A stretch of 64,000 bases of DNA, from the NCBI RefSeq assembly GCF_000331305.1, contig NZ_KB217478.1, positions 1,533,679 through 1,597,678 on the forward strand, given 5' to 3'. The notes beneath the pieces were generated by a model that was given only the letters and a program-made list of their open reading frames with translations, had not been told where the DNA came from and ran no database searches. Positions 1-64,000 of this stretch are shown here, piece by piece; positions within the stretch are counted from its first letter, which is position 1, and each line of letters opens with the position of its first letter. This stretch comes from Calothrix sp. PCC 7103. GTDB lineage: Bacteria; Cyanobacteriota; Cyanobacteriia; Cyanobacteriales; Nostocaceae. The position numbers and the translations under genes are program-made.

Positions 1-659
1 TACTGAGCAGTAGTAATAAAGCTAATGAAAACCAATCTAATTCAACCGAAACAATAAAAACAGAAAAGCCGCAACAATCACAAATAGAGTTATCTCAACA
101 AAAACAGTGGCGTCAACAATTATCTGTATTACAGCAAAATTTCAAAAAATACCAGCAAGATGGTAATATTACTCAAGAAATATCAACATTAAGTCAAATA
201 GGTGTTATTCATAACGAGCTAAATGAATATTCACAAGCATTGGAATATTTACGATTAGCCCAAACAAAGCTCAACGCATCTAATTTGGCGCCAAGGGAAA
301 AATCTTTTATAGAATCCGAACTACTTGTTAGTTTAGGAACTATTTATGCTGACCAAGGGAATTATCCTCAAGTTTTAGAAATTACAAGAAAAATATCTCA
401 ATCTAGCTCTTTAACTATAGGTGATTTAGGAAACAATGCAAAACCGACACCAGACAAAAAGCAACCACCAGAAGTAGACATAAGAAAAGATGCTTATACA
501 CTTTATAGCATCGCAACCACACAACAAAAACGCGGTAAAGTTCGTGAAGCATTACGCACTGCTGAAGAAGTATTAAAAATGCTCAGAACAGTAAATGAGA
601 AAAACGGCGAACAAGAAGTTACTAATTTTATTAATACTCTGCGTCAGCAATTACAGTAA
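1..659 (+). CDS. TPR-repeat protein, 3' end (partial)
   Basis: The reading frame is open from base 3 to the TAA at 657-659, so this is the C-terminal ~218 residues of a protein that begins outside the window. An internal TTG at 240 should not be taken as the start. Three helical pairs resemble tetratricopeptide repeats: around the segment ISTLSQIGVIHNELNEY, around LGTIYADQGNYPQVLEI, and around AYTLYSIATTQQKRGK. The upstream part is Gln/Ser/Asn-rich and hydrophilic. TPR arrays usually mediate protein-protein contacts; no catalytic domain is visible in this portion, so the role is unknown. The next gene is convergent and about 135 bases away. Confidence 0.75.
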   Translation, partial: LSSSNKANENQSNSTETIKTEKPQQSQIELSQQKQWRQQLSVLQQNFKKYQQDGNITQEISTLSQIGVIHNELNEYSQALEYLRLAQTKLNASNLAPREKSFIESELLVSLGTIYADQGNYPQVLEITRKISQSSSLTIGDLGNNAKPTPDKKQPPEVDIRKDAYTLYSIATTQQKRGKVREALRTAEEVLKMLRTVNEKNGEQEVTNFINTLRQQLQ

Positions 660-793
660 CTCTATTCTCAAAATATAAATAAAAAAGATAGAAGTTGAAA
701 TTTACATCACTCAACTTCTATCAAACCTTTTACGTGCAATATACAAATATAGCTTTCAAGCATTTAACTATCTAGCTAAAAGGATTTTGCACC

Positions 794-1015
794 TTAACCG
801 TTCAACATGACATCAGGGCATCGTTTACGACAAACTTTTTTACCATTAATAATTTCACAGGTTAAAACAGGGTATCCACCTCCGTTACACTGTGCAATTA
901 ACTGTTGAGGTTTTAAGTTTGATGAGGTTTGGGCTACAACTGGAATTACATTTAGTAATAGAGCAGTTGCAGTTGAACCTAACGCAGCAAAACTAAAAAT
1001 TGTTGACTTTTTCAT
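794..1015 (-). CDS. small secreted Cys-rich protein
   Basis: A 73-residue product starting at ATG 1013-1015. An in-frame upstream extension of 22 residues lacks signal-peptide character, so it was not used. Residues 1-28 form a classical signal peptide: MKK, a hydrophobic stretch, then VVA before QT as the likely cleavage site. The mature ~45 residues carry four cysteines in the pattern C-x10-C-x8-C-x3-C, near a basic stretch KKVCRKRC, which would suit two disulfides in the periplasm. No family is recognised. The gene stands alone, convergent with the TPR gene. It could be an extracellular structural or antimicrobial-type peptide, but that is speculation. Confidence 0.55.
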   Translation of the reverse strand: MKKSTIFSFAALGSTATALLLNVIPVVAQTSSNLKPQQLIAQCNGGGYPVLTCEIINGKKVCRKRCPDVMLNG

Positions 1016-1191
1016 GGTCAATCTCACAAACATTGTATGTTGAATAGATTTGTAAGTTGTTATCCTTACCCATCTAAGCATTTACATGTTTGGCTCTTCA
1101 GGTTTATGCAATAATGTAGTACTTACGCTAACTATATTTATAGCGTGTGTTGAAAGCAGATATTGACATTGTGATGTCCCAAAAAGGCGCC

Positions 1192-1230
1192 AATGTTAGA
1201 AAAGCAGGTATCGATGGATATTCTAACATT
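1192..1230. repeat. inverted repeat in the 1016-1355 gap
   Basis: A perfect 10-base inverted repeat, AATGTTAGAA at 1192-1201 and TTCTAACATT at 1221-1230, with a 19-base loop. It has no T-run on either side, so it is not a clear terminator. A short conserved-looking open stretch overlaps it, but I recognise no gene. The rest of the 340-base gap holds a partial GGCAAGGATGCCC-type repeat at about 1308-1320. Confidence 0.4.
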
Positions 1231-1355
1231 AGAATTCAACTTTCAAATTTTTGTTTTGATTAGGTTATCTCAGGAGATATAACAGAACACCATTTAATAG
1301 GAAAAGGCAAGGATGCCCGCTTTACAAGAGTTGAGATTAAGAGATTATAAGGGTT

Positions 1356-2033
1356 TTAATAGCTTTTGAATAATGCATAAATGTAGGCTATGGCTTCTGG
1401 AATTACTGTGCGTATTCCTTCGCTGGAACTCCACCACCTTTTTGCGTCGTAACTGCGGGTTTCTGCGGCAATTACACCTATTTTTGTGTTAGGTAATACT
1501 TTTTTATATAGCATCCAGCTACGTCGCGCGTGTACGTCATCGCTGAATAGGTTCATTGATTCAAGTTTAATTGGAGATGTTGCTAGTTTTTCTTTTAATG
1601 CAATAACTGAAGCATAAGTTCTATCTTTTCTTACGTCTGGTGTTGGTATTGGTATTATTTTATCATCGTCGGCGCCCATTGCTTTTAGTGTGGCTGCGGC
1701 AAGGTTTGCAAAGTCTTTATATTCAGATAGATAATATCCGCGTTGTAGGGGAATGCCTGTAGTTATTATATGAGTATATGAACCCATTTCAAATTCATTT
1801 AATGCTTGTTTTAGTGCTTCGTCAGCAAGCCATCCTTCGACTACTAGTATATCGGCTTTGATGGGAGAGGTAACGGCAAGAAATGGTTGAACTTGAGTGA
1901 TTATAATTGTGATTAAAGCAAGAATCAGCGTACTCGCTATTATCCAGCCTTGCAGTGTTAGAGTCAACATTTCTTGCCGTCTTATTAGTTTAATATCAAA
2001 AGGTTTTTTCCTTTTACGAACTTTACTACGCAT
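1356..2033 (-). CDS. YdcF/ElyC-like (DUF218) membrane-anchored protein
   Basis: A 225-residue protein with a basic N-terminus (KVRKRKKPFDIKLIRR) and one membrane segment at about residues 27-50. A DUF218-like domain follows: the strand ADILVVEGW, the segment HIITTGIP, and an RTYASVIALKEKL region with the charged residues typical of the family. DUF218 proteins (SanA/ElyC/YdcF) are linked to envelope or polysaccharide-carrier metabolism, but their reaction is mostly unknown. The ATG lies 4 bases after the stop of the DUF2301 gene, so the two are almost certainly co-translated. The length is normal for the family. Confidence 0.7.
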   Translation of the reverse strand: MRSKVRKRKKPFDIKLIRRQEMLTLTLQGWIIASTLILALITIIITQVQPFLAVTSPIKADILVVEGWLADEALKQALNEFEMGSYTHIITTGIPLQRGYYLSEYKDFANLAAATLKAMGADDDKIIPIPTPDVRKDRTYASVIALKEKLATSPIKLESMNLFSDDVHARRSWMLYKKVLPNTKIGVIAAETRSYDAKRWWSSSEGIRTVIPEAIAYIYALFKSY

Positions 2034-2037
2034 TTAG

Positions 2038-2676
2038 TTATGTTGAAGGTTGTTCCTTTTGTTGTGCTTTCAAATAAGCAAACACTGATTTGTCTCCAAT
2101 ATCCGGAGGAATTGCTTGGATTAATTTGCGTATTGCGAAGACTACAAAGAAAATAGCCCAAATACTTAGTAACGCGCGCTCCCACTGTAATGGAAGGATT
2201 CGTAGCATGTGTCCTAGTAGTAGTGTGGGTACTATAGGAGTTAAGATTTTTGTTTCTAAGCGATTAAAACAAAATGCTTCTTTAAAGAAAATACCTGTGA
2301 GCGCTGCAAATGTAAAACCTATTCCTAGTATGGTTAATGGTTGGGTGTATACGCTTACTGCAAAGGGTTGGGGGTCTGTATGTGCGACAAATAAAGCTGC
2401 GATACTACCTATTACCCAGAATGCTTGTAACGCTCGATGCAGTGCTGCCATGTATATGTGGATGAATAACAAGCTGACACCTAGGGCTATACTAAAACAT
2501 GTGTATAGGGGTGTTAGGAGTGGGTAGATGGTGGGGTTGTTATTGAATAATACTAAGATGGCGCCTGTTGCAAAGCATGATGCTGCTACTGCTAAACCTG
2601 CTCGGTAAATTATTACTCCTCGACGGTCATCTTTATCTACCGTGAATTCGCCAAATTGTCCTTGATATATTTCCAT
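2038..2676 (-). CDS. DUF2301 multi-pass membrane protein
   Basis: A 212-residue protein with a hydrophilic N-terminal 24 residues, then about six hydrophobic segments: near residues 27-45, 50-74, 84-98, 112-130, 143-158 and 166-183. The tail is charged. It matches my recollection of the DUF2301 family, conserved in cyanobacteria without a known activity. The ATG at 2674-2676 is preceded by AAAGGAAC at good spacing, which fixes the start. It is the first gene of a two-gene operon with the DUF218 protein, which suggests a shared envelope role. Confidence 0.7.
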   Translation of the reverse strand: MEIYQGQFGEFTVDKDDRRGVIIYRAGLAVAASCFATGAILVLFNNNPTIYPLLTPLYTCFSIALGVSLLFIHIYMAALHRALQAFWVIGSIAALFVAHTDPQPFAVSVYTQPLTILGIGFTFAALTGIFFKEAFCFNRLETKILTPIVPTLLLGHMLRILPLQWERALLSIWAIFFVVFAIRKLIQAIPPDIGDKSVFAYLKAQQKEQPST

Positions 2677-2751
2677 ATAATGTTCCTTTGCGGACGGGTT
2701 GGGATGAGAGGGCGGGTTTATGTATATCTTAATAATAATGAAGATTTTGGG

Positions 2752-3540
2752 TTAACCCACCCCTACCTCTACTGTTTGCGCTAATTGTATATTTAATTGT
2801 TGTTGGGCGTTGCCTCTATTAATTGCTATTTCTACCCAACCTTCACTTCCTACTAGTGCAACTGCACTGTCAACGGGTACACTGTTGTATGTTGCCCCTC
2901 CTTTTATCTTTAAGTTACCTACTACGATATGCCAAGTTTTACCTTCTACGTAGCTTCCGGGTATGTTGGTGATTAGATTTCCGAATCTGTCTATATATTG
3001 GATACAACCTACGGCGCCTGTGGTAATGTAACAGCATTTGGGCAAATCAAGTTCTACCAAACTATCTATATCTATTTCTCGACCTAAATTTTCTATTGGA
3101 ACACCACTGGCAAGATGTGCAGCACAAGGAGCAAAGATGTCTCGACCGTGAAAGGTATAGCTAGGGTTTGGAACTCTCCAATATTGTGGGTTTGTTAGTT
3201 CTACTGCTCGAATCGCTCGACTTTGAATTAATACCCCACTAATTATGCCATTATCCGGCGCCACCAAAAACCCATGTGCTAATTCTACGGCAACGGCACG
3301 TCGCGTACTTCCAACACCTGGGTCAACTACTGCCATGTGTACTGTTCCATCAGGAAAATAGGGACAAGCACTCATTAAACAAAACCGCGCAGCAGCTATA
3401 TTTTGCGGTGGAATTTGGTGCGTTAAGTCTATCACCCTGATTTCTGGGTTAATTCGAGCTATTACACCCTTCATTACACCAACATAAATATCACTTAAAC
3501 CAAAATCGCTTAACAAGGTAAGCAGTTGTGGAGAAATCAT
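2752..3540 (-). CDS. SAM hydroxide adenosyltransferase-like (DUF62) protein
   Basis: A 262-residue protein of the SAM-dependent chlorinase/fluorinase superfamily. In its bacterial and archaeal members this family hydrolyses S-adenosylmethionine to adenosine and methionine. Seen in the sequence: N-terminal LLSDFGLSDIYVGVMKG, then HMAVVDPGVGS at about residues 88-98, FLVAPDNGIIS at about 112-122, and HGRDIFAPCAAHLA at about 149-162. The DPGVGS and PDNG segments contain the conserved substrate-binding residues. The small C-terminal domain (GNLITNIPG to the end) is complete. The gene is single, 75 bases downstream of the DUF2301 start and in the same direction. Halogenating members carry extra motifs that I do not see, so hydrolase is the better guess. 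Confidence 0.8.
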   Translation of the reverse strand: MISPQLLTLLSDFGLSDIYVGVMKGVIARINPEIRVIDLTHQIPPQNIAAARFCLMSACPYFPDGTVHMAVVDPGVGSTRRAVAVELAHGFLVAPDNGIISGVLIQSRAIRAVELTNPQYWRVPNPSYTFHGRDIFAPCAAHLASGVPIENLGREIDIDSLVELDLPKCCYITTGAVGCIQYIDRFGNLITNIPGSYVEGKTWHIVVGNLKIKGGATYNSVPVDSAVALVGSEGWVEIAINRGNAQQQLNIQLAQTVEVGVG

Positions 3541-3673
3541 CGTGTTATCACATAGACACTTATCTTGCTTGCTACATTATAAATAATTTGATTTCTGTAA
3601 CAACAGTTACCAAATTTATGCTATATTATGATTACAAGACATAGATATTTATAGATGATAGAGGCAAATTACT

Positions 3674-3829
3674 ATGATTCGTAACAGGTTTGAGGCTGCC
3701 GAAAAAGCGCGCGAAGCACACAAACAAAGCATTAAGAAGAATTTAGAGCATCGTCTACAAGTTGCTAGAACCAAAGGTGATGAGAACTTAATCCGTCAAA
3801 TTGAAGCTGAAATGCAGTATTTCAATTAA
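3674..3829 (+). CDS. 51-aa basic helical protein
   Basis: A short ORF with ATG at 3674 and TAA at 3827-3829, preceded by AGAGG nine bases upstream. The product begins MIRNRFEAAEKAREAH and is a single charged amphipathic helix rich in Lys, Arg and Glu, ending QIEAEMQYFN. It resembles small conserved hypothetical proteins common in Nostocales genomes. No function is known to me. It is the only plus-strand gene in this stretch and is followed at once by a GAAACC-type paired repeat. Confidence 0.6.
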   Translation: MIRNRFEAAEKAREAHKQSIKKNLEHRLQVARTKGDENLIRQIEAEMQYFN

Positions 3830-3840
3830 CCCATCACATA

Positions 3841-3922
3841 AAGAAACCGGGTTTCTACGCATTCATTGTCGCAGACAAATTGTCATTTTATTACAATATC
3901 TCAACAAAGAAACCCGGTTTCT
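3841..3922. repeat. paired GAAACCGGGTTTC element
   Basis: Two near-palindromic arms, AGAAACCGGGTTTCT at 3842-3856 and AGAAACCCGGTTTCT at 3908-3922, flank about 51 bases. The inner sequence (AAATTGTCA..TTTATTAC) is shared with the element at 56743-56808, so these are copies of one dispersed element. It lies between the 51-aa gene and the methyltransferase stop and could also act as a terminator hairpin. Confidence 0.7.
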
Positions 3923-3925
3923 GTT

Positions 3926-4795
3926 TTACACAATAATTCCCAACATCCCCAAAATCTCATTGACAGGAGCTTTGCTAATTTCTAGCTCCAGAATTATATT
4001 GAACAAGTGCTTTGGTATATATGTACTGCGAGAAATTGTTTTGCTTCCCGTATTTAATTCCCAGTCATACCAAGGTTGCTCATACTGCTTACCATTTCTT
4101 TTAGTTACAGTTCTAAAATGAATTCTTCCGGTTCCTTTTCCTCTGCTTCTCCTTTTGGTACTACTGGTTAACTCAACTGGTAGTACTTCATCGTTTGATG
4201 GTTGCTCCGCTTCATCTGACTTCCAAATTGGAAGGTAGACTATACCATGCTGTTCAAATACTTGTTTGAATCTATACTGGTTATTTCCCCAGTAAACAAA
4301 ACAGTGAGACTGTGTTGCTGGTAAATTGGGCTGTGAATTTGCGTCTAAAAATGTAATTCGCTCTTTCCAAAAACAAACTGGTTGAGTTTTTAATACTGAA
4401 TTTAACCAGTCTGTGTCCGTCTGTGCTGGCAAAAGAGCAATCGCTTCACTGACTCTGCCACTTGATACTTCGGCAGTTAATTTTGCTATCCACTTGTCAG
4501 GATGAGAGAATGGTGGGTACAGGAAAAGGCGCCCATTCCACTCATGTTCTAATCCATTATCTATTCTGGTGTAATGGGAACGTGCTGGAATATTCTTATT
4601 ACCCTCTGCACAAGGGTCTAAGTCAATCTCATTTAAAACCTCTAGTACAAGGGAGATAATATTTGGTGGAGTGTACCATTCATCTAAATGTTGTGTATTC
4701 GTTGTATAGTAAGAACTCGGAGTCTCTTGAGTCACAACGCGCGTTGCTCCCAAGTTTTGGTACTTCAAAGAGTACCGATTGATTACATTAACCAT
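3926..4795 (-). CDS. phage Dam-type DNA N6-adenine methyltransferase homologue
   Basis: A 289-residue protein. Residues ~37-165 match the phage DNA N6-adenine methyltransferase family (PF05869): DEWYTPPNI, LDPCAEG, then the position of motif IV, and AIALLPAQTDTDW. Motif IV, normally (D/N/S)PP(Y/F), reads LFLYPPFSH here. The first catalytic position is Tyr, so activity is doubtful unless this subfamily uses it. The C-terminal ~80 residues contain a basic RRSRGKGTGRIHFRTVTKR patch, a plausible DNA-binding module, followed by an aromatic YDWEL segment. Such enzymes come from phages or mobile elements. The stop of a 29-codon ORF lies two bases before its ATG, suggesting coupled translation. Confidence 0.7.
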   Translation of the reverse strand: MVNVINRYSLKYQNLGATRVVTQETPSSYYTTNTQHLDEWYTPPNIISLVLEVLNEIDLDPCAEGNKNIPARSHYTRIDNGLEHEWNGRLFLYPPFSHPDKWIAKLTAEVSSGRVSEAIALLPAQTDTDWLNSVLKTQPVCFWKERITFLDANSQPNLPATQSHCFVYWGNNQYRFKQVFEQHGIVYLPIWKSDEAEQPSNDEVLPVELTSSTKRRSRGKGTGRIHFRTVTKRNGKQYEQPWYDWELNTGSKTISRSTYIPKHLFNIILELEISKAPVNEILGMLGIIV

Positions 4796-4797
4796 TT

Positions 4798-4887
4798 TTA
4801 GCAGCCATTGTTGATTTTTCCGCAGAAATCTCTTTTTACGTGTGTTACCGTTCCCGCTTCACCACCAAAGTGTGCTACTAAAACCAT
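4798..4887 (-). CDS. possible 29-aa ORF coupled to the methyltransferase
   Basis: An ORF from ATG 4885-4887 to TAA 4798-4800 whose stop lies two bases before the methyltransferase ATG. The product (MVLVAHFGGEAGTV...) is unrecognised. The same frame stays open upstream for about 24 more codons without an ATG, so this may be the tail of a decayed longer gene. The close join to the next gene is the only argument that it is real. Confidence 0.25.
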   Translation of the reverse strand: MVLVAHFGGEAGTVTHVKRDFCGKINNGC

Positions 4888-5093
4888 GATTAATTCTGTG
4901 AATGAGCGTGAGATGGTGTACCGGGTTGCAGTATTAAGTTTTGTCTCTTTCGAGAGCTATAGCGTCTGAGTACTTACAAACTGTTACCTCCGCGATTATT
5001 TTGATAGTATTGAGAAGTAAGTTAATTCGCTATTATAAATTAAGCCACTACTGAATATTATATACTAAATTCAGTCATGGCGTAACCAAACTT

Positions 5094-5444
5094 ATGAATT
5101 TTTCACAGGCTTTGGATAGAACCCTCGAAAAGTATGGGATTAGTGCTAAGTGGCTGTCTGAGCAAACAGGTGTTTCTCAGCAGATGATTAGTGGCTTTCG
5201 GCGGGGGCAACAGCGAATTTATTCTGATAGTCTAGAGCGACTATTAGCTGGATTACCCTCGGAAGCTAAGAATTATCTGTTATGCCAATTAGGAGAAGTT
5301 GATACAAATAAGATAGATATACGCTCGTTGGTGCTATCGGCATCACCGACCGAAAAAGCAGAAATTTTAAATACACTCGCTAATTGGGTACTTTTAAGCA
5401 AAGAAGAAATAGCACAAAACGCAGAATTAGTCAAGGTTAGATAA
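5094..5444 (+). CDS. XRE-type helix-turn-helix protein
   Basis: A 116-residue protein. Residues ~5-55 form an XRE/Cro-like helix-turn-helix: LEKYGISAKWLSEQTGVSQ is helix 2 and the turn, and QMISGFRRGQQRI is the recognition helix. The C-terminal half (ASPTEKAEILNTLANWVLL) is helical and may dimerise. The gene is divergent from the methyltransferase across ~300 bases, an arrangement often seen for a regulator and its target in phage-derived modules. What it controls is not visible. The 4888-5093 gap holds no other recognised gene. Confidence 0.7.
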   Translation: MNFSQALDRTLEKYGISAKWLSEQTGVSQQMISGFRRGQQRIYSDSLERLLAGLPSEAKNYLLCQLGEVDTNKIDIRSLVLSASPTEKAEILNTLANWVLLSKEEIAQNAELVKVR

Positions 5445-5606
5445 GTCCAATCAGTTTTTATTTGAGTGGATGAAAGCCAGACTGTTATTTACTGTGTGTG
5501 TAAACGCTCTTGCTCAACTTTTGGCGCCCATATTAAAATAGACTATATTGTTGCTTCTCTATATATTAAGGATTTCCGAAATTCTAAGTTTTTAAATAAC
5601 ATGAAT

Positions 5607-5666
5607 GGTGCGTAACAGCACAAAGTTATTTTGCTTGAATCTAATTTGTTTATGCTGTTACGCACC
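5607..5666. repeat. 14-base perfect inverted repeat abutting the GIY-YIG stop
   Basis: GGTGCGTAACAGCA at 5607-5620 pairs perfectly with TGCTGTTACGCACC at 5653-5666, with a 32-base loop. The stop codon of the GIY-YIG gene (5667-5669 on the minus strand) directly abuts the outer arm. This is a dispersed repeat type known from Nostocales intergenic DNA and could double as a terminator. Confidence 0.65.
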
Positions 5667-6245
5667 CTACTCTTTACCAAAGGGTTGTCCCCAATATTTC
5701 CAGTTTTCTTTGTTGAATGGAGATTTCCATTTCTTAATTAACTCTAATTCTAATCGCTGTCGCGGTCTTGTTGGTACGGGTGCATCCCACCAAAAGCCGA
5801 TGTTTACTGCTGTCTCTAATTTATATTTATGATGCAAGTCTTGGTAGTTTTCAATGTACCGCTTGCAGTCGTGTACTCCTTTCCAACGTTTGTTAGATTT
5901 ACAAGTTTCTCCGATATATAAAAGTAAATTTGCTGTTGAGTCAATTACGAAATATAAACAAGCTTGTCCAGGACTATCTACAGGTAGTCGATAAAAAGAT
6001 AACGCTGATAAATGTAGGGTAAATGGGTCGATAATATTTGGGTCAACGTGCGACTTGGGCACGTCGAATAAACTTACTTCTTCTATTGGTTCTTTTGTTC
6101 TTACCTGTTGTTGATGGATGGCAATTTGTTTTTTCCATTTGGAAAGTGCTATATCATCCATCAATAACACAGGGCTTCTATGAAGTGGCGCCCTTACTAT
6201 ATCAGTTGGTGAGAACAAGTCAAGTTGATTTGTCTCCAATGGCAA
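5667..6245 (-). CDS. GIY-YIG nuclease family protein
   Basis: A 192-residue protein. The N-terminal ~85 residues are polar and unrecognised. From about residue 95 it carries a GIY-YIG-like core: ACLYFVIDS for the first strand, LLYIGET for the second, then NKRWKGVHD with the Arg/His region. It ends with LELELIKKWKSPFNKENW and its conserved Glu and Asn. This family includes homing, restriction and repair nucleases; the target cannot be told. The apparent start is TTG at 6243-6245, just after GGGGA. A second TTG two codons later has better spacing, so the first residues are uncertain. It sits near other mobile-type genes. Confidence 0.7.
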   Translation of the reverse strand: MPLETNQLDLFSPTDIVRAPLHRSPVLLMDDIALSKWKKQIAIHQQQVRTKEPIEEVSLFDVPKSHVDPNIIDPFTLHLSALSFYRLPVDSPGQACLYFVIDSTANLLLYIGETCKSNKRWKGVHDCKRYIENYQDLHHKYKLETAVNIGFWWDAPVPTRPRQRLELELIKKWKSPFNKENWKYWGQPFGKE

Positions 6246-6362
6246 TCCCCAATAAACACAACGCAGGTCATGCTATCACTGGGGTGTTACATTTGTAAAC
6301 AATAAGCAAGTACTATTTTATACTGAAAACGTATATTTGTGGTGTCGAGAAACCTAAATTTA

Positions 6363-6797
6363 GTAAACGGTACTACTTGTTTACTTAACCAGTAGTACTG
6401 CATGGCGCCGATTTAAAAGTTTATAATTTTGTAAATACCAATGTTTAAACAATAAACTTAATGTAAATATTAATACTTATTTTTTAATTAATTACGTATT
6501 ATTCTCCTCCGGAGACACTCCGTGAACGCAAAAATAACGCTATTTTACAGACGAATATTTATAAGAGCGCGTATTTTTATACAGATTTAACACAGAACGT
6601 CAGTGCTATTTATTTCAATTACTGGGGCTGTTTTACTGGTGGTTATGATTTCTATTTTCTTTTTTACTGGGGCTTATTTATTATATCCCTCAGTAAAACA
6701 TTGTCGGCACCTGCATAAACAGTACTACCTGTTTACTTAACCAGTAGTACCGTTCGGGATGCTGATTCCAAAGTTTATAGTTTTGTTAATACCAATC
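6363..6797. repeat. direct duplication of an ~82-base block
   Basis: Copy A (about 6363-6443) and copy B (about 6716-6797) share GTACTAC(T/C)TGTTTACTTAACC, AGTAGTAC and, further on, AAAGTTTATA(A/G)TTTTGT and AATACCAAT. Each copy opens with an inverted repeat GTACTAC / GTAGTAC able to form a hairpin. The copies are diverged by point changes. No ORF spans either copy. Confidence 0.7.
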
Positions 6798-6895
6798 TTC
6801 CTACCTATTAAAACCTCGGACACAGGCTAAAGTGTTCCCGATGTCCGTCACGAATTATAAGGAGTTGGCGCCAATTTAAAAGGTTTTCTTACTCT

Positions 6896-6972: not shown

Positions 6973-6987
6973 CACAAGGATTTGTAT

Positions 6988-9081: not shown

Positions 9082-9094
9082 ATATCATTTAAGC

Positions 9095-54499: not shown

Positions 54500-54611
54500 A
54501 TATTTTGGCGCCTGAATATTAATTTTATTTGATATTAATTTTATCTGATATTGTAAATTGAATTCCGCAAAGCAGAACCCAATTTACAATATAACACTAT
54601 AATATTAATAA

Positions 54612-54644
54612 ACCATCCGTTACATCCGTTACATCCGTTGCCAG
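54612..54644. repeat. TCCGTTACA nonamer array after uvrB
   Basis: Three units of TCCGTTACA ending in TCCGTTGCCAG, directly next to the uvrB stop (54645-54647). It is the reverse complement of the WD40-end array and the same as at bioD. Confidence 0.75.
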
Positions 54645-56645
54645 TTATCGTCCTACTAACTTGTCGCGTAAGGTTTTAATCTTGTCGCGAAACTTAGCTG
54701 CTTCTTCAAATTCTAAGTTCTTGGCAGCATCTTTCATTTGCACTTCTAATTTTGTAATTAAATCAGGAATACTTTCTAACGGTATTTCGTCGATGTGTTC
54801 TTCGACTATCTGTAACTCTTGGGAATTCAGGCGCCGCGAAACTTCTAAGAATGATAAAATTGCATTACTCGATTTTTTCTTGGCTATTGGTTGCGGTGTA
54901 ATGCCGTGCATCTTATTATGTGCCATTTGAATACCACGGCGCCGTTCGGTTTCTTCGATGGTTTTTAACATGCTGTTAGTAAGGTTATCAGCGTACATTA
55001 TCGCTTGCCCACGTATGTGACGCGCAGCTCGACCTACTGTTTGAATTAAAGAACGTTCCGCACGAAGGAATCCTTCCTTATCAGCATCCAAAATTGCCAC
55101 TAACGAAACTTCAGGTAAATCTAAACCTTCCCGCAATAAGTTTACACCTACCAATACATCAAACTTTCCATCACGTAAGTCCTGGATAATTTCAATACGT
55201 TCAATGGAATTAATTTCTGAGTGTAAATATCTAACCCGAATGCTATTGTCTTGCAAATACTCGGTTAAATCCTCAGCCATTCGTTTAGTTAAAGTCGTAA
55301 CTAATACCCGTTCAGCTAGGTCTACACGGTCTTTAATTTCGCCTAATAAATCATCAATTTGACCATTACTAGGACGAACAACAATTTCTGGGTCAAGCAC
55401 TCCAGTCGGACGAATAATTTGTTCAGCGACATTATCTTCAGAAATTCCTAACTCCCAATCCCCAGGAGTTGCTGAGACAAAAATACACTGGTTGACTTTC
55501 TGCCAAAATTCCTCTGATTTTAAAGGACGGTTATCAGCAGCACTCGGTAAACGAAACCCGTGTTCGATTAGTACTTTTTTACGCGTTTGGTCCCCATTAT
55601 ACATACCGCGAATCTGAGGTACTGTAACGTGAGACTCATCTATTACTAGCAACCAATCTTTAGGAAAATAATCAATTAAACATTCAGGTGGTTCTCCTGC
55701 AAGTCTCCCAGCTAAATGACGTGAGTAATTTTCGACACCGTTACAATAACCAACTTCGCGCAACATTTCTAAATCATAACGAGTACGCTGGTCAATGCGC
55801 TGTGCTTCTAACAACTTATTTTGTTCTTCTAGTTCCAGTTTACGTGCTTTGAGTTCAGCCGCTATATCATTAATAGCTACCTCTAATCTGTCTTCGGGTG
55901 TAACGAAGTGACGTGCTGGATACAAATTTACTGCTTGTAAACTCTGTAATATTTCCCCTGTTACTGGGTCAACATAACGAATAGCGTCAACTTCATCCCC
56001 AAAAAACTCTATGCGAATAATTCTATCTTCGTATGCAGGCCCAATTTCGAGAACATCACCCCGAACCCTAAACTTACCCCGACCCATTTCAATATCATTA
56101 CGGGTATATTGAACAGACACAAGGTCTTTCAAAATTTCTCGTTGGTCTACTTCCATCCCGACTTGAAACGGAATTGCAGCTTTGAGATATTCGTTGGGGA
56201 TACCCAAACCATATATACAGCTAATCGAAGCCACAACGATAACATCGTTCCGTTCAAACAACGAGCGAGTCGCTGAGTGTCGTAACATATCTATTTCGTC
56301 ATTAATCGAAGCTGTCTTTTCTATAAACGTATCGCTGACAGGAATATAAGCTTCTGGCTGATAATAATCGTAATAACTAACAAAATATTCAACAGCGTTA
56401 TTCGGGAAAAACTCTCGTAATTCGTTACATAACTGCGCTGCCAACGTCTTATTGTGTGCTAAAACTAACGTTGGTTTACCTACCTTTTCTATTACTGACG
56501 CGATTGAGAACGTTTTACCAGTCCCAGTGGCGCCAAGCAACGTTTGGTACATATTACCAGCATTTACAGATTTAACCAATCGCTCAATAGCGTGCGGTTG
56601 GTCACCAGTTGGTTGAAAGGGTGCTTGAAGATTAAACTCTTTCAT
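54645..56645 (-). CDS. uvrB: excinuclease ABC subunit UvrB
   Basis: A 666-residue protein from ATG 56643-56645 ([20 protein letters not shown]); the upstream in-frame extension of 19 residues is not family-like. UvrB verifies DNA damage with UvrA and then loads UvrC for nucleotide-excision repair. Seen: Walker A GATGTGKT, the beta-hairpin region [52 protein letters not shown], and VGRAARH motif VI. The C-terminal UvrC-binding helix pair [17 protein letters not shown] is present. Confidence 0.97.
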
Positions 56646-56742
56646 ATATTCGTACTTAAGTACTATGAATACCCTACATAATAGTAGCGAATGTACCACC
56701 AAGAGCGCTTGCTAAAAATACGGTATTTTCCTACGGATAACC

Positions 56743-57550: not shown

Positions 57551-57592
57551 TAATTTAAATTAATTCAATAAGTAAAACTTATTTATTTTCTC

Positions 57593-57620: not shown

Positions 57621-57629
57621 AGTTTAAAT

Positions 57630-57842
57630 AGGGCTTGCTGAATAGAACTATAACCTTTACCATGTAATGGTTTCAAGCATTTTAAGTCCAAGTAGATGCA
57701 AGCTTAGGGCGCCTACAGGCTCAAAATCCGTGCATTTGGGTGGAAAAATTAGGGCTGGATTTGTAAGTCAACCTCCGAAACAACCATTTTTTGTACTGCA
57801 AGCGCGTCCAGATTCGTTTTGTGGAGTTTTTCAGCAAACCCT
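57630..57842. mobile_element. 213-base MITE with terminal inverted repeats
   Basis: The left end is AGGGCTTGCTGAAT and the right end complements AGGGTTTGCTGAAA: 12 of 14 bases match. TAAATA flanks both sides (57625-57630 and 57842-57847), giving a 4- to 6-base target duplication depending on where the edge is set. No real ORF lies inside. It is non-autonomous; the ends are like those of cyanobacterial IS elements, but the family is not certain. Confidence 0.7.
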
Positions 57843-57964
57843 AAATATTTTTACTATCAGGATATCTATCTTAAAGTAGACCATCGCTTATCCCAATAGA
57901 GAGAAGGTATGATCTGAGGTATCAAGTTAAAATTCATCAATACATAAACAAAATATAAATAAGG

Positions 57965-58067: not shown

Positions 58068-58129
58068 ATTGGAAGTAAGCACGCTCGGAAAGCACTGAAG
58101 TGCTTATTACGTGGGGCAGCAGCGTTTTG

Positions 58130-58927
58130 TTAACTTCCAATTACGACACCCCAGAAATAATCCTCGAAAGGCGCCTCATCTAAATTGATATGATATTGTC
58201 TAGCCCAAGAATACACGTCCATACTAATACGCCCGTTCTCGTCACTAAACCAGTCGCCTCCTTTTATTGAGATATTACCTAAAATGCTAATCCAATGGGT
58301 GGGAAGTGGAAGGAATGGTGTTTTTCCGCGTAACAAACCATCAGCAGTAATTAAAGCAAAGGCAATTCCACCTGCTGCAATAGCTTTGGATGCTTCTTGC
58401 AGTGCGTCAAATTCTCCATATAAATATGTGTGGCGGTAAGTGCAGGTGCGATAGCCTAATATTTCTTTTGTCCAACCTTTCATTTCCCAAGATTTTGTCA
58501 TCCCAGCTAAGTTACGCACAATCTCTGGCGCCTCTGCTTCAATATTGAATATAGAGTTTTCAGATTCTCGCAACGTCGCTAAAACCATCCAGTCAGACTG
58601 ATTCATCCGCAGGCGCCCATTGCTACGTTGTAAAGTCCGTGATGCCTCTATTTTGGTTGTTAAACCAGTGTAAGCACCTGTTTCAAACAAACTACGACAA
58701 ATTTGGACATACCGTAAAGGCTGCTTGCGAACCAATTCAAATACAATAGCAGCAGGTCCACAAAAAGGTTGGGCGCCTTGGTTGATTTGAAACGGGTCAT
58801 TCAGACGCAACCGCATTTCTGCAACTAACTGCTTTTTCTCAACGCTTGCCCATACACCGGGAGCTTTGGAATTTTCAAAGTCTGTTAAGGCGCCGAGAAC
58901 TGTAGGATTCAATAGCTGGGAATTCAT
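58130..58927 (-). CDS. hypothetical protein with papain-like Cys/His segments
   Basis: A 265-residue soluble protein that I do not recognise. QPFCGPAAIVFELV at about residues 53-66 looks like the nucleophile helix of a C39/papain-like peptidase, and LPTHWISILGNI at about 214-225 looks like the His strand. An Asp in GGDWFSDENG follows. These would form a triad. No signal peptide is present. It could be a peptidase, amidase or transglutaminase-like enzyme, or an effector. It is a single gene, downstream of the M20 gene by 66 bases. Confidence 0.55.
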   Translation of the reverse strand: MNSQLLNPTVLGALTDFENSKAPGVWASVEKKQLVAEMRLRLNDPFQINQGAQPFCGPAAIVFELVRKQPLRYVQICRSLFETGAYTGLTTKIEASRTLQRSNGRLRMNQSDWMVLATLRESENSIFNIEAEAPEIVRNLAGMTKSWEMKGWTKEILGYRTCTYRHTYLYGEFDALQEASKAIAAGGIAFALITADGLLRGKTPFLPLPTHWISILGNISIKGGDWFSDENGRISMDVYSWARQYHINLDEAPFEDYFWGVVIGS

Positions 58928-58993
58928 AATTAGCTGGTATAAATAAAATTAGTTAAAAATAAACTTATACTCATTTATACCTGCTCGAATAAA

Positions 58994-60217
58994 CTAATTA
59001 CAGAATTTCTCTACACATCGCACAAAAATTTCCACACCCATTGCCAAAGCAGTTTCGTCAAAATCGAATCGTGGGTGATGGTGCGGATATGCTAAACCCT
59101 TCTCAGGATTTGCCGAACCCAAGAAAAAGTAACAGCCAGGAACTTCCTGTAAGAAAAATGACATATCCTCGGCGCCCATAGTTTGACATTCGGGCACTAT
59201 ACCAAGCGGAGTCTCCACAACATCCTCGGCAACAGAACGTACAAGTTCCGCTATGGCTATATTATTAATCACTGCTGGATACAATGACCAATAATTCAAG
59301 TCATATTTAGCACCCTGCGCTTCACAAATACCACTAATAACTTGCTCGATACGATTCTTAAAAAACCCTACTAAAGCTGGGTTAAAGTACCTAACAGTCC
59401 CGCTCATGTCAGCAGTATCAGCAATGACATTACGCTTAGTGCCCGCATGAAGTTTACCAATGGTAACAACGGCGGAATCAATCGGGTTAACGTTACGTGA
59501 AACAATAGTTTGTAGTGCATTAACAACTTGGGCAGCAACAACAACCGAATCTACAGTTTGATGTGGCATGGCCCCATGTCCACCTCGACCAGAAATCGTG
59601 CAATCAAAAGATTCTACAGCAGCCATTAAGGCGCCGGGTCGAACACCTACAGTTCCAACAGACAAGTTATTCCACAAATGTAAGCCAATAATCGCATCAA
59701 CATTGGGATTTTTAAGAACCCCCGCTTCTATCATTGGTTTGGCGCCACCAGGTCCTTCTTCAGCAGGTTGAAAAATGATCTTAACAATGCCAGCAAAATC
59801 ATGACGATGTTGATGTAAATAATACGCTGTACCAAGAGCAATAGCAGTGTGCCCATCATGTCCACAAGCGTGCATCAACCCGTCGTGCTGCGAACGGTAA
59901 CTTACTTTATTAAGCTCCTGAACAGGTAATGCATCCATATCCGCACGAATTGCTAATACTTTTGAGTGCTGAGTTGGAAGTTTTTCGCCTTTGATAATGG
60001 CAACAATACCTGTTTGGGCAATACCTGTTTGATGTTCAATGCCCCATTCTTGCAGCTTACTCGCAATAAACAAAGAAGTAAGTTTTTCTTGAAAACCTAA
60101 TTCAGGCTTTTGATGGAGTCGGCGCCGCCATTCGATTATTTGCGGATGAAGATTGCGAATAGACAGGCGAATTCGAGATAAATCAACTGAAGTTAAACTT
60201 GGAAAAGCAGAAATCAT
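58994..60217 (-). CDS. M20-family amidohydrolase (N-acyl amino acid hydrolase)
   Basis: A 407-residue metalloenzyme, like hippurate hydrolase/IAA-amino acid hydrolase. Seen: RRRLHQKPELGFQE, LAIRADMDALPVQE, HACGHDGHTAIALG (metal ligands), IFQPAEEGPGGAKPMIEAG (catalytic Glu), GLHLWNNL, and the dimerisation domain GRGGHGAMPHQTVD. The C-terminus has MGAEDMSFF and YPHHHPRFDFDE. The physiological substrate is unknown. It starts at ATG 60215-60217. Confidence 0.92.
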   Translation of the reverse strand: MISAFPSLTSVDLSRIRLSIRNLHPQIIEWRRRLHQKPELGFQEKLTSLFIASKLQEWGIEHQTGIAQTGIVAIIKGEKLPTQHSKVLAIRADMDALPVQELNKVSYRSQHDGLMHACGHDGHTAIALGTAYYLHQHRHDFAGIVKIIFQPAEEGPGGAKPMIEAGVLKNPNVDAIIGLHLWNNLSVGTVGVRPGALMAAVESFDCTISGRGGHGAMPHQTVDSVVVAAQVVNALQTIVSRNVNPIDSAVVTIGKLHAGTKRNVIADTADMSGTVRYFNPALVGFFKNRIEQVISGICEAQGAKYDLNYWSLYPAVINNIAIAELVRSVAEDVVETPLGIVPECQTMGAEDMSFFLQEVPGCYFFLGSANPEKGLAYPHHHPRFDFDETALAMGVEIFVRCVEKFCN

Positions 60218-60273
60218 CTTAAATCTCTAATTTAGTAACAGTAATGCACTTCTATTCCTATTATGCTTTGGTT

Positions 60274-60294
60274 TATCCGTTACATCCGTTGCCA
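60274..60294. repeat. TCCGTTACA nonamer array at the bioD end
   Basis: ATCCGTTACATCCGTTGCCAG. The bioD stop TAA (60280-60282, minus strand) lies inside the first unit, and the last codons (WQRM) are repeat-encoded. Confidence 0.75.
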
Positions 60295-60963
60295 GAGGTG
60301 TTCTAAATCTAAATTAGATACTGAAGCCGCTAACTTTTCTAAATCACTAGGGTTTTCAAAATATGGTAAATAGCCAAAAACTCGAATATTAGTAAGTGAT
60401 TGTATCAAATCGGCTGGTGCCAAATCTTCAATTTCTGCTTCGCTATATGGTTGAGAACAGTTTAGAACAATTCCCAATAAGTTAACTTTGCTTAATTTAG
60501 CGAGCGCGACATTTGCGACAGCTTGAGAAATGGCGCCTAGTTTCACAGGCACAACTAATATAGTAGGTAAACGCCATTCGGCAGCTAAGTCAGCTACTGT
60601 TAACTCAAAAGTGACAGGAGAACCTAGTCCTCCTAATGCTTCGACAAACACAAAATCTTTATTTTGCTGTAACTTCGTCAGAGTTTGCCATACTAAGCCC
60701 AAATCTACATTTCTATTTTCTTTGGCAGCAGCAATTGGTGGCGCCAGTGGTGCCTGAAAATATAGCGGTGTGATTTCGGATGGTGACTGCTGTAACGAAA
60801 ATAGCTTTTGGTAAGTTTCGCGGTCTCCTTCTCCTGATTGTATTGGCTTCAGGATGCCAAAGCTATGAGATGCACGATATTTTTGCCAATAAGCTGCAAG
60901 CGCAGTTGTCAAAACTGTTTTACCTGCTTCGGTATCAGTGGCTGTAATTAATAGTGAATTCAA
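60280..60963 (-). CDS. bioD: dethiobiotin synthetase
   Basis: A 227-residue P-loop enzyme that closes the ureido ring of dethiobiotin using CO2 and ATP in biotin synthesis. [13 protein letters not shown] is the P-loop at about residues 7-19, followed by [24 protein letters not shown] is the second conserved block, and [17 protein letters not shown] and [10 protein letters not shown] follow. The start codon is TTG at 60961-60963. No other biotin gene is near. The terminal residues come from a dispersed repeat, so the true ancestral end may have been different. Confidence 0.92.
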
Positions 60964-61011
60964 CTTTAATTTCTTTTTTAAGGTTTTTGCTTACTTATTA
61001 TCTTATAAATT

Positions 61012-62811
61012 TTATCGATTATTTCGACCTGACGACTCAGTAGGAGCAGCATTTTCTAGTTGAGTGCTATCTGGTGTTGGAGTCGGAAAAGTACCAGGTG
61101 CAATTCTCTTGAAAATGCCTTCTGCTGGTTGTGTTGGGTCAATAGTTGGGGTTGGTGTTGGAAAAATCTCTGTTGTAGTAGGTGTTGGTTCGGGAGTTGG
61201 TTCAAGCGTTGCTGTTGGTGTGGGTGTTGGAACGTCTTGAGATGGTGTTGGTGTAGAAATTAAAGGTTTAGCTAACCCAACTGTTAAACTATAGTCACTT
61301 TCTGTAACTCCAGGTGCCGGACTAAGTTGAATTGTATATCTACCTGTAAATGGAAGCGTGCCTTGATATGATGCAACATTTCTTGCTGCCCCATCTACTG
61401 CTTCGCGGTTTGGCGCCAGTACCGTTAGCTCGATTTGACCTTGTTGAGCCAACGATGCAGTTAGTTGCTGTCCCTCTTCACCTTGAAATGTATATAAAAC
61501 AGTTTGATTGGCGCCTAATTTACCTTGAACAGTAGCAAGACCAGAAGCATCAAATCTCAACCGTTTACTAAATACAGCAGGTTCCGACGTTGACGTAGGT
61601 GTTGGAGTTGCCGTTGCGCTTTCACTAATTACAGGAGAAGGAAAAGTTTGCGGTGGTGTTTCTACTGGCGTTTGTGGTTTAGGCTGGTTACGAATTGAAC
61701 TAACTAATGCCCAAGAACCAAATCCAGCTAGCACAACGACCGCAGCACCAATAGCTCCAACTGCCAAAGGATTATCTAATACCGAATTATTGCTATTAAC
61801 AGGAGGAATAACTGGGTCGGGTCTGTTAGAAGCGCGTCCTTGGTATTCTTGTTCAATAGGTTGGGGTACTGGGTCTGGGCGCCGACCCACAGCAACAGTT
61901 TGTACGTTAGATAGATTATTAGCTCTGGGGTCTGGTTGGGTTAAACCATTTGTTAAACCATTTGTTAAACCATTTATAGAATCTAATGCTTGCTCAACAT
62001 CGCGCGCGCTTTGATAACGTTCCCCAGGAATGTAATTGAGCATTCGATTCAAAACTTGGGAAAAACGAGGATTAACTTTAGCAAAACGCTGCCAATTCCA
62101 CAACGTCAAATTTTCATCATATAAATCTGCTGGTTCTTTGCCAGTTAACAAAACAATTGCGGTTACAGCTAAAGCATATAAATCACTATTAGGGTATGCT
62201 CTGCCAGTTTGCATTTGTTCACCAGGCGCATAACCCAACTTACCAACTGATGTCGCGTTAATAGTTCCACTTGGTGACTGTAACTTAGTTGCCAATTCTT
62301 TAACTACACCAAAATCTATTAGTACTGGCTTATTATCTATTTGACGTTGAATAATATTTTCTGGGGAAATATCGCGATGAATAATACCGCGATTGTGTAA
62401 ATGTTCGAGTACAGGTAATAAAGAGCGTATAATATAGACAACTTCCGAATGTGTAAAAGTACTTCCTGTAGCTTTACGTTCTTCGAGTAAATCGCGATAA
62501 GTTTTACCAGCAACGTAATCTTGCACCAAAAATAGCCGCTGGTCTTGCTCGAATCGTTCGCGAAATTGGGGAATTTGGGGATGCTGAATTTGATAGAGAA
62601 TTTCGGCTTCGCGTTGAAAAAGCTCTTGTGCTTTCTCCCAAGCGGAAGTTGTGCCTGTAGCATTGGGAATTAATTCTTTTATTGCACAAGGTTCATTAAA
62701 ACGTCGCTGGTCTTCTGCCAGATAGGTTCTACCAAACCCGCCCTGACCCAAAATATTGATTATGCGATAGCGATTTTGTAGGATAGTGCCAGCTGGAATG
62801 GGTGGTTGCAT
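61012..62811 (-). CDS. Ser/Thr protein kinase with C-terminal sensor-like domain
   Basis: A 599-residue protein. The kinase domain (residues ~14-280) is complete: ILGQGGFGRTYLAE P-loop, CAIKELIP with the ATP Lys, IIHRDISPENII catalytic loop, and VLIDFGVVKEL. A linker follows, then one transmembrane helix at ~350-370 (GAIGAAVVVLAGFGSWALV) and a Thr/Pro-rich stretch. A PPC-like beta domain (FDASGLATVQGKL, TLPFTGRYTIQL) and another PTPTPT tail end it. Cyanobacterial Hanks kinases of this type sense envelope conditions. The target is unknown. Confidence 0.9.
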   Translation of the reverse strand: MQPPIPAGTILQNRYRIINILGQGGFGRTYLAEDQRRFNEPCAIKELIPNATGTTSAWEKAQELFQREAEILYQIQHPQIPQFRERFEQDQRLFLVQDYVAGKTYRDLLEERKATGSTFTHSEVVYIIRSLLPVLEHLHNRGIIHRDISPENIIQRQIDNKPVLIDFGVVKELATKLQSPSGTINATSVGKLGYAPGEQMQTGRAYPNSDLYALAVTAIVLLTGKEPADLYDENLTLWNWQRFAKVNPRFSQVLNRMLNYIPGERYQSARDVEQALDSINGLTNGLTNGLTQPDPRANNLSNVQTVAVGRRPDPVPQPIEQEYQGRASNRPDPVIPPVNSNNSVLDNPLAVGAIGAAVVVLAGFGSWALVSSIRNQPKPQTPVETPPQTFPSPVISESATATPTPTSTSEPAVFSKRLRFDASGLATVQGKLGANQTVLYTFQGEEGQQLTASLAQQGQIELTVLAPNREAVDGAARNVASYQGTLPFTGRYTIQLSPAPGVTESDYSLTVGLAKPLISTPTPSQDVPTPTPTATLEPTPEPTPTTTEIFPTPTPTIDPTQPAEGIFKRIAPGTFPTPTPDSTQLENAAPTESSGRNNR

Positions 62812-63520
62812 GGTGATGTTAATTTAAGAACGCCAATAAAAGCTTTATACGAGGATAAGCTATAAAGACAGACAGACGCACAACATAGTAAGTGCCGTAG
62901 ACTTTAAACGGCTTGTGTAACTCTATTTTGACAATTTTTACACTTACCATGAGTGTACTTCAGCAGAAAAATATGGTTTTCCGCACTTCTTGGATATATT
63001 GTTAGATTTGCAACCCGAAATCAAGTCTGTTGCGTCATCAATATTAGTCCTTGATACAAAATACGCCCTCAGTAACTCTCAAGCAAAGTGATTTGCATCA
63101 CATCTAAAAATCAGGATTGTATTTTATACGAGGAGTTACAATAGTGTAAACAATTTGCGACAAATCGCATAGAATATTGTACTGCCCCTATCTGCACTCC
63201 TCATAAGTGCTTTTGTGATTGCCGAAATAAAAACTGTACACAAAATTAATCCAACACTGATTCACTTAGGTATAAATGAGAAGGATAGAGACGCAATTAA
63301 TCGCGTCTCTACCAAAAAAAACAAAAATAGGTCTTATATCCAGACTTCATGTCTGTTAAGCTGTCAAAAAGGTAGTTTTACTATTTTAAGACTGAAAAAC
63401 TTAATAGTTATGTTTTGTGGAGTCATACGTGAAAGTTTTCATCAAAACTTCAAACAACAAACTATTCATTTTTCAGGGACTTCCGCGTAGAAAAGCCAAA
63501 TCTCTGATGATAAGATTGCC
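62812..63520. other. ~700-base gap upstream of prs
   Basis: No convincing gene is seen; the plus-strand ORF at 63215-63490 has no protein-like features. The region must carry the divergent promoters of the kinase and prs genes. It includes an imperfect 26-base palindrome TAGAGACGCAATT..TCTCTA at 63286-63311, a relative of the one at 21670-21697. Confidence 0.55.
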
Positions 63521-64000
63521 ATGAATGCACATCGAGGAACTGCTGTGCTTAGTTCTGCAACTTTAAAAATGCAGCCAGCGCCAACGGGATTTACCGAAAG
63601 TAATCGTCTGCGGCTATTTTCTGGCTCTGCTAATTTACAACTTTCCCAAGAAGTTGCCCGCTATTTGGGCATGGATTTGGGACCGATGATTCGCAAACGT
63701 TTTGCGGATGGAGAACTATATGTCCAAATACAGGAATCGATACGGGGTTGTGATGTTTACCTAATCCAGCCTTGTTGCAATCCTGTCAACGACAACTTGA
63801 TGGAACTCCTAATTATGATTGATGCTTGTCGTCGTGCTTCCGCGCGGCAAGTTACGGCAGTAATTCCGTACTATGGGTATGCACGCGCCGACCGTAAAAC
63901 GGCAGGACGCGAATCAATCACTGCCAAATTGATTGCAAACCTAATTACGGAAGCAGGCGCCAATCGGGTTTTGGCGATGGACTTGCACTCTGCTCAAATT
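63521..64000 (+). CDS. prs: ribose-phosphate pyrophosphokinase, 5' part
   Basis: The first 160 residues of PRPP synthase, cut by the window edge. The enzyme makes PRPP for nucleotides, histidine, tryptophan and NAD. Seen: LRLFSGSANLQLSQEVARYLG, MIRKRFADGELYVQIQES, IRGCDVYLIQPC, VTAVIPYYGYARADRK (flexible-loop and ATP region) and LAMDLHSAQ at the edge. ATG 63521 gives an N-terminus MNAHRGTAVLSSATLK, like other cyanobacterial homologues. Confidence 0.96.
   Translation, partial: MNAHRGTAVLSSATLKMQPAPTGFTESNRLRLFSGSANLQLSQEVARYLGMDLGPMIRKRFADGELYVQIQESIRGCDVYLIQPCCNPVNDNLMELLIMIDACRRASARQVTAVIPYYGYARADRKTAGRESITAKLIANLITEAGANRVLAMDLHSAQI

Follow-up and report, generated by a model that had tools for sequence, protein, structure and literature searches.

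The stretch of DNA analyzed here (the window) comprises 64,000 bases of the genome of Calothrix sp. PCC 7103 (G000; 11,584,393 bases in 12 contigs), at contig C7:1533679-1597678, and the element in question is the hexamer GGCGCC, which stands there in place of the usual cyanobacterial highly iterated palindrome (HIP), HIP1 (GCGATCGC). An earlier note on this DNA had counted about 96 GGCGCC sites by hand against about 3 expected, and had seen no HIP1. The exact position listing gives 96 sites over 1..64000 (first at 287, last at 63961), in coding and noncoding DNA and, as the word is palindromic, on both strands, against 3.0 expected from base composition; HIP1 has no exact match in the window, and 14 matches vs 8.8 expected when one mismatch is allowed. 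One hundred dinucleotide-preserving shuffles of the window contained 4.8 GGCGCC on average and 12 at most. The maximal-order Markov expectation is 53, a value that is inflated because the motif itself raises the counts of its five-base parts. Three of the sites (54507, 54830 and 54938) cluster at 54507..54943 in or beside uvrB, an open reading frame (ORF) with UvrB domains at 54645-56702 on the minus strand, and fourteen, from 58170 to 61878, lie in a dense stretch over several ORFs at 58130..62811 on the minus strand, with a protein kinase domain in 61012-62811.

The excess extends to the whole genome. G000 contains 17,704 GGCGCC and eight copies of the reversed control CCGCGG, and in the 264 kb formed by the window and 200 kb of flank, GGCGCC has an order-1 Markov ratio of 19.3, above every other hexamer that passed the count filter. 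HIP1 is found 163 times in 11.58 Mb (14.07 per Mb; its reversed control, 58 times), and Table 2 of Elhai 2015 (PMC4390886) lists 14 per Mb for Calothrix PCC 7103. The earlier note had taken GGCGCC to be standing in for HIP1, and had held that a normal genome-wide frequency of GGCGCC, or abundant HIP1 outside the window, would speak against this; the genome shows neither, and the substitution holds in all seven genomes of the genus described below. That GGCGCC is an alternate HIP of this strain is already published: Elhai 2015 describes it as by far the most over-represented hexamer among 97 cyanobacterial genomes, in Calothrix PCC 7103. Like HIP1, it is a GC-rich palindrome found about once per kb in coding and noncoding DNA and tied to lone methyltransferases; unlike HIP1, it is another word with another enzyme, in a genome from which HIP1 is all but gone.

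As the earlier note had stated, the sites lie in both coding and intergenic DNA. Of the 659 sites in 444 kb of G000, 560 fall in coding DNA (1.57 per kb) and 98 in noncoding DNA (1.12 per kb, or 0.84 per kb where no ORF of at least 40 aa runs). The Gly-Ala frame holds the largest share of the coding sites (323 of 560), as a codon or base-composition effect with no cause at the DNA level would allow, but GGC GCC encodes 323 of the 630 Gly-Ala pairs, as against 15 predicted from codon usage, the other two frames hold 106 and 131 sites, further sites lie in noncoding DNA, and CCGCGG occurs just eight times genome-wide. Together with the shuffles, these counts refute such an effect, to which we give practically no chance. 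The spacing of the sites is near random (coefficient of variation (CV) 1.05; variance/mean 1.02 in 1- and 2-kb bins), with mild clumping at larger scale (1.26 in 5-kb and 1.54 in 10-kb bins), and a regular spacing was rejected on these values. Pairs at most 50 bases apart are too few (23 vs 47). Words one base off GGCGCC are depleted to 0.11-0.68 of expectation in the 264 kb, except GGTGCC (1.16); GACGTC is seen four times vs 58 expected in the 444 kb, and GACGCC and GGCGTC are also scarce.

To place G000 among its relatives, we used a genus sample of seven genomes, G000 and six congeners (G291-G296): Dulcicalothrix desertica PCC 7102, Calothrix sp. PCC 7716, NIES-4105, HK-06 (NIES-2101), and the metagenome assemblies C42_A2020_038 and FI2-JRJ7. 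The genus would take its name, Dulcicalothrix, from Dulcicalothrix desertica. GGCGCC occurs at 1.15-1.71 per kb in all seven genomes, with 1-8 copies of the reversed control per genome; on rounded genome sizes this is 1,150-1,711 sites per Mb, as against the roughly 1000-2000 per Mb looked for in an alternate HIP. HIP1 was found 0-9 times per genome in 120-444 kb sampled from each, G000 being the genome with a whole-genome HIP1 count. In a survey of 291 genomes of the order, all 28 other family members contain 1,285-6,835 HIP1 and 0-283 GGCGCC. In a class-wide draw of a second, partly overlapping set of 291 genomes, none other than G000 pairs about one GGCGCC per kb with a near-zero control; the others with more than one GGCGCC per kb also contain CCGCGG in hundreds or thousands. 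The replacement of HIP1 by GGCGCC is genus-wide, in a clade where identity in aligned DNA falls as low as 81%, and this persistence counters the argument of Elhai 2015 that alternate HIPs occur sporadically and are not maintained within clades. The case described there agrees with ours in the word, the near-absence of HIP1 and a predicted GRCGYC methyltransferase, but its data are one genome and 19 kb of a second strain (D253), while the present analysis covers seven genomes with a single syntenic lone enzyme, a footprint resolved to the base, and persistence to 81% identity. Searches of the literature on GGCGCC in Calothrix, HIP1 methylation since 2016, GRCGYC and Dulcicalothrix found, by title and abstract among the papers listed, no further paper on this alternate HIP. 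Relative to the literature found, the clade-wide persistence, the lone syntenic enzyme with its likely origin in a restriction system, the footprint at the inner C and the retention at synonymous sites are new.

The candidate enzyme was sought among methyltransferases of the C5 type (PF00145), of which each genus genome has 9-17 matches. A lone C5-methyltransferase of 313-335 aa (L013 and its orthologues, 82-99% identical to L013) lies at one locus in all seven genomes, with a RuBisCO-like gene on one side and a GHL10/SLH gene on the other; in G000 it is a 313-aa enzyme at C7:8004469-8005407, and the G292 copy is split across the ends of contigs C29 and C207 of a draft assembly. It carries the C5-methyltransferase domain (PF00145, E 5.9e-66), has M.HaeIII as its nearest solved sequence, and is open in all six full-length orthologues aligned. 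A second methyltransferase, of 658 aa, is nearby in G000, G291 and G292 only, with a remnant in G295. Separately, a stop codon lies in frame within another C5-methyltransferase gene, L012 (G000 C7:7848143-7849318); its relatives in G291, G292 and G293 have uninterrupted frames of 411 aa.

In sequence, the lone enzyme looks to be of the BsaHI/HindVP type (GRCGYC) and left over from a restriction system. The genus orthologues and the HindVP-linked homologues have in common the recognition stretch RR(G/A)IFSIDEPSPT(I/V). The text of PMC2413257 gives M.BsaHI homologues a TI dipeptide in the recognition domain with an R eleven residues upstream, and both are present in the genus enzymes by eye. The same text treats HindVP and BsaHI (GRCGYC) as homologues and gives the central C as the base that M.BsaHI methylates, a methylation that shielded a GGCGCC-spanning site from HhaI; a table row in PMC8565308 lists GRCGYC as a 5-methylcytosine motif of the HindVP source strain. 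In contrast to BsaHI/HindVP systems, with which the genus methyltransferase has this homology and recognition stretch in common, no endonuclease partner was found in the seven genus genomes, and the sites are enriched, not avoided. The profile search for RE_HindVP (PF09519) found none in the seven; its built-in controls were silent, and the order survey, positive in 52 of 291 genomes, therefore served as the positive control. By hand tally, 48 of these 52 also have an L013 homologue, which is present in 68 of the 291. In all three HIP1-bearing relatives scanned (L174, L175 and L176), RE_HindVP adjoins the homologue; the endonuclease gene is intact in G220, while in G235 and G278 it is split or interrupted by stops. 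The median number of GGCGCC per Mb is 2.2 in genomes with homologue and HindVP (n=48) vs 31.2 in those with the homologue alone (n=20, including G000 and G059; Mann-Whitney p 7e-6, uncorrected for kinship), as expected if the target of the pair includes GGCGCC. The orphan methyltransferase that the earlier note had anticipated was thus found in part: a lone enzyme is present in every genus genome and its predicted site includes GGCGCC, but that site, GRCGYC, is broader than GGCGCC. Neither Elhai 2015 nor the present survey of C5-type enzymes identified an enzyme specific for exactly GGCGCC.

Elhai 2015 describes two predicted GRCGYC methyltransferases in Calothrix PCC 7103, notes that the base they methylate is not known, and considers that the second may have been critical. 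Further homologues of the lone enzyme (56-83%) beyond the syntenic copy are present in five of the seven genus genomes (59 PF00145 loci fetched, not all fragments), and among these 59 loci G291 and G294 have no second homologue; a second copy as a requirement was rejected on this ground. The absence also bears on the model that Elhai 2015 puts forward, in which mismatch repair takes its strand direction from G-methyl-C at replication and keeps the mutations that create GGmCGCC, so that the word accumulates as an unselected by-product. The model as described there predicts that the inner C is methylated and that GGCGCC is favored over other GRCGYC words, and the scarcity of GACGCC, GGCGTC and GACGTC fits it. 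If the word had saturated near one site per kb, however, the sites should be evenly spaced, and their spacing is near random.

To look for a trace of methylation, we aligned the 444 kb of G000 with each of the congeners, over 105-264 kb and at 81-95% identity, part of the dense block at 58130..62811 being aligned to all six. Where a congener differs from GGCGCC by a single base in the first 264 kb, it mostly reads GGTGCC or GGCACC (G296, 22 of 27; G291, 6 of 8; G292, 15 of 22; G295, 8 of 12; G293, 12 of 15; G294, 19 of 26). For the footprint test, we took inner-C positions with GGCGCC as the outgroup state and counted those with a T in exactly one of the five close species. Such single-species changes were found at 31 of 245 positions vs 59 of 1,317 at other GCG sites (p 7e-6), and at 15 of 129 vs 24 of 607 (p 0.002) when both outgroups were required; they are scattered over all five species. 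If the inner C were methylated, its deamination would produce a raised rate of this kind, and the footprint, which is methylation-like, suggests indirectly that the inner C of GGCGCC may be methylated. Elhai's model, too, fits this footprint.

These new variants tend not to last. For the inner C, single-species changes outnumber those shared by part of the ingroup by 31:7 vs 59:56 at other GCG sites (p 0.001), and the ratio of terminal to internal branches for C to T is 93:18 vs 284:234 (p 5e-9). Earlier versions of the single-versus-shared contrast, with larger effects, were judged confounded, because a gain in the outgroup mimics a shared loss, and were replaced by versions in which variants fixed in the whole ingroup are split off; the main signals persist, at smaller size. 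At the outer four bases, single-species changes are as frequent as at other G/C bases (21 of 500 vs 1,411 of 30,663), and changes common to part of the ingroup are rarer than in the control (8 of 500 vs 1,493 of 30,663, p 2e-4). New changes at the control rate and a scarcity of older ones point to removal after mutation, in contrast to Elhai's model, which acts on the supply of mutations; this holds when any outgroup is accepted.

The same tendency is seen at synonymous positions. GCC changed to GCT after GGC in 13 of 2,354 branch-codons, compared with 117 of 4,822 (p 1e-9) in the principal control, for which the preceding codon does not end in C and Gly codons are excluded; after other C-ending codons, the count is 21 of 741. 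Shared changes at this third base are likewise rare after GGC (1 of 83 vs 20 of 125, p 3e-4). As the third base of GGC, the inner C is replaced by T as often as in the control (65 of 2,371 vs 25 of 1,062 before other G-codons), but transversions at this base are 3.7-fold less frequent than in the control (7 of 2,371 vs 51 of 4,618, p 2e-4). Conservation of the sites in close relatives, to which the earlier note had pointed as a check, was ranked for the whole word: among GC-rich hexamers it stands at 5/575, 1/492, 35/226, 11/313, 2/418 and 8/246 in the six congeners. Noncoding sites are conserved beyond the flank-based value in five of the six, G292 (5 of 10 sites) being the exception, with samples of 4-34 sites each. 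By parsimony, 55 losses outside CpG transitions were seen where 275 were expected (0.20; control median 0.64; rank 4/629), and a strict polarised count, with few sites, gave fewer losses than expected, inner C to T excepted, and zero gains. Since the mutation rate is normal or raised and losses later tend to vanish, selection or conversion toward the motif would be at work; the word seems to be held by selection or biased conversion, with a weaker signal when both outgroups are required. The retention data lean to these over a mutational by-product. Inferred gains into GGCGCC, 30 seen vs 6.2 expected, are the highest of 719 hexamers and speak for Elhai's model, which, all told, we consider unlikely while still giving it real weight. 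Selection for HIP1 itself was treated by Xu, Lawrence and Durand 2018, as cited in PMC6604393.

Repair specific for T:G mismatches (very-short-patch-like), or GC-biased gene conversion, could convert GGTGCC to GGCGCC and raise the motif with no function attached. The non-persistence of losses fits this, and so does the synonymous change GGT|GCC to GGC|GCC, found in 14 of 132 cases vs 79 of 5,974 for GGT before other G-codons, a count that may hold mispolarised losses. Vsr (PF03852) was however found in none of the seven genus genomes by a search that was positive in 5 of 14 controls, and GGTGCC, at 1.16 when the other one-off words stand at 0.11-0.68, is not depleted, the opposite of what Vsr-type repair would produce. 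Vsr-type repair was rejected on these two grounds. The suppression also reaches changes of the outer bases, transversions included, which goes beyond T:G repair. General biased conversion toward the motif is the remaining form of this explanation, not separated from selection by these data, and the explanation as a whole appears rather improbable to us.

A signal for DNA uptake or recombination would also be retained as if selected, and the density of GGCGCC (1.15-1.71 per kb) is comparable to that of the uptake sequences of Haemophilus and Neisseria. Sites with a neighbor at most 150 bases away were lost somewhat more often (90 of 1,630 vs 103 of 2,841, p 0.004), again as an uptake signal would allow. 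Uptake signals are not known, however, to be tied to one methyltransferase or to be replaced by another word in sister genera, and we hold this explanation to be very improbable.

The explanation we favor, with confidence only somewhat above even, is that GGCGCC is the resident HIP of the Dulcicalothrix desertica genus, a weakly selected address mark of a domesticated DNA methyltransferase. An ancestor would have carried a GRCGYC restriction-modification system of the BsaHI/HindVP type, lost the endonuclease and kept the C5-methyltransferase as a lone core gene; the position of the gene and the failure to find an endonuclease are observations, and the history and the specificity are putative. 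The enzyme would methylate the inner C of GGCGCC on both strands, as the homology to M.BsaHI and the C-to-T footprint suggest. The 5-methylcytosine would deaminate to give GGTGCC or GGCACC at a raised rate; the raised rate is seen in the single-species variants, and deamination is its probable cause. Losses would tend not to persist, so that the motif is held, synonymous positions included, by a force acting on the DNA word, which most of the contrasts, though not all, support. This force may be a weak selective pressure to keep one methylated mark per 0.6 to 0.9 kb in place of HIP1, and the same picture would arise from repair or gene conversion biased toward the motif. Strand choice in repair, chromosome upkeep or another function would be candidate roles of the mark.

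Several results weigh against this explanation. Counted over all branches, inner C to T reaches no more than 1.09 times the rate in other GCG contexts (111 changes vs 102 expected), since internal branches carry few of these changes (18, vs 93 on terminal ones) and the excess appears on terminal branches or in single-species variants; the tree used for parsimony was assumed from distances. Shared inner-C changes are not significantly rarer than in the control (7 of 245 vs 56 of 1,317, p 0.38), and neither the synonymous single:shared ratio at the inner C (22:5 vs 11:7, p 0.18) nor the scarcity of shared outer-base changes with both outgroups required (2 of 260 vs 346 of 13,879, p 0.10) is significant. 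GCC after other Gly codons, outside the motif, is also low in C to T, although the cases are few (1 of 161). Protection against all losses is moderate (193 seen, 354 expected; 0.55; control median 0.82; rank 32/625), C-to-T losses polarised the wrong way may have raised the gain rates, and inferred losses exceed gains by 193:58, or 153:22 on the five terminal branches, which could mean a slow decay of the motif. On the side of the enzyme, 18 further order genomes with a homologue (in a few, fragments only) and no HindVP have just 4-872 GGCGCC, so that the enzyme alone is insufficient to create a HIP. Its predicted site is also wider than GGCGCC, and since other GRCGYC words are rare, something beyond the enzyme would pick GGCGCC among them.

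What HIP sequences do has long been an open question, and this genus offers a handle on it in the form of one lone methyltransferase, one locus and a clean word. With seven genomes at hand (81-95% identity to G000), methylation of the inner C, its dependence on the gene and the effect of its loss on the cell are directly testable.

Outside the genus, G059, from another family (f8 g22), contains 9,489 GGCGCC in 3.8 Mb and 74 HIP1, and its congeners have about 3,100-3,400 HIP1 in three genomes and 134 in a fourth. In 187 kb of G059 (L089-L092, L179-L185; GC 0.54), CGGCGCCG is at 25 times the order-1 expectation, AGCGCC/GGCGCT at 5.9 times and GGCGCC at 4.0 times, with CCGCGG at expectation (0.96); the words CGGCGC, AGCGCC and CAGCGC are also raised. 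G059 has a homologue of the lone methyltransferase (53%), and HindVP was not found in it by profile search. A parallel switch to a word with a GGCGCC core is suggested by this one genome, among the 20 of 291 with a homologue and no HindVP; no report of it is known to us, no literature search having been aimed at it. A more general possibility, which we put forward tentatively and hold at somewhat less than an even chance, is that one HIP word can take the place of another as a methylated address mark: selection would act to keep a 5-methylcytosine within some GC-rich palindrome roughly once per kb, and the resident lone methyltransferase would set the word. A HindVP-type orphan would then have taken over at the base of the clade, with GGCGCC held against its own deamination, and G059 would be a parallel switch.

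Other genomes of the survey also depart from HIP1. G136 (L093-L096) has 81 HIP1 genome-wide, and in 80 kb GCCGGT occurs 146 times vs 11 and GCCGGC 84 times vs 8. It is a case of the RCCGGY alternate HIP, as in Oscillatoria PCC 10802 in the account of Elhai 2015; that HIP resembles GGCGCC in that HIP1 is low and another methyltransferase-linked palindrome is enriched, and differs from it in the word and the predicted enzyme. G159 (L238) has 59 HIP1 vs about 2,000 in three near-complete congeners, and a 20-kb sample shows an excess of AGCGCCC/GGGCGCT and CAGCGCCC/GGGCGCTG, which may point to a further alternate word. G007 (L103) has 134 HIP1 genome-wide, and GGCC-centered palindromes (TGGCCA, AGGCCT) are raised in 20 kb. 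Genome-wide, GGCGCC occurs 3,403 times in G170 (reversed control, 13) and about 1,000 times in G037 (1,031), G060 and G193 (reversed control, 10-21). In the stretches sampled, G170 has 8 sites vs 5.1 expected (20 kb) and G037 has 1 vs 3.7 (40 kb); both were rejected as further GGCGCC genomes, being HIP1 genomes with few GGCGCC in these samples, and their genome-wide sites may be clustered. G008 has 2,493 GGCGCC genome-wide, and its sampled stretch reads N.

Some further features of G000 were observed. In the 264 kb, CGCGCG is also over-represented (order-1 ratio 5.6) and comes second in inferred gains, GGCC and GATC stand at 0.12 and 0.20 of expectation, and CCATGG, CTCGAG, GTGCAC, TGCGCA, CGTACG and GTCGAC do not occur. 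A repeat of about 220 bases at window positions 57625-57848 has, among the matches listed, four further copies elsewhere in the genome at 99-100% and one at 90%, and copies in the congeners at 81-92%; it resembles a small mobile repeat.

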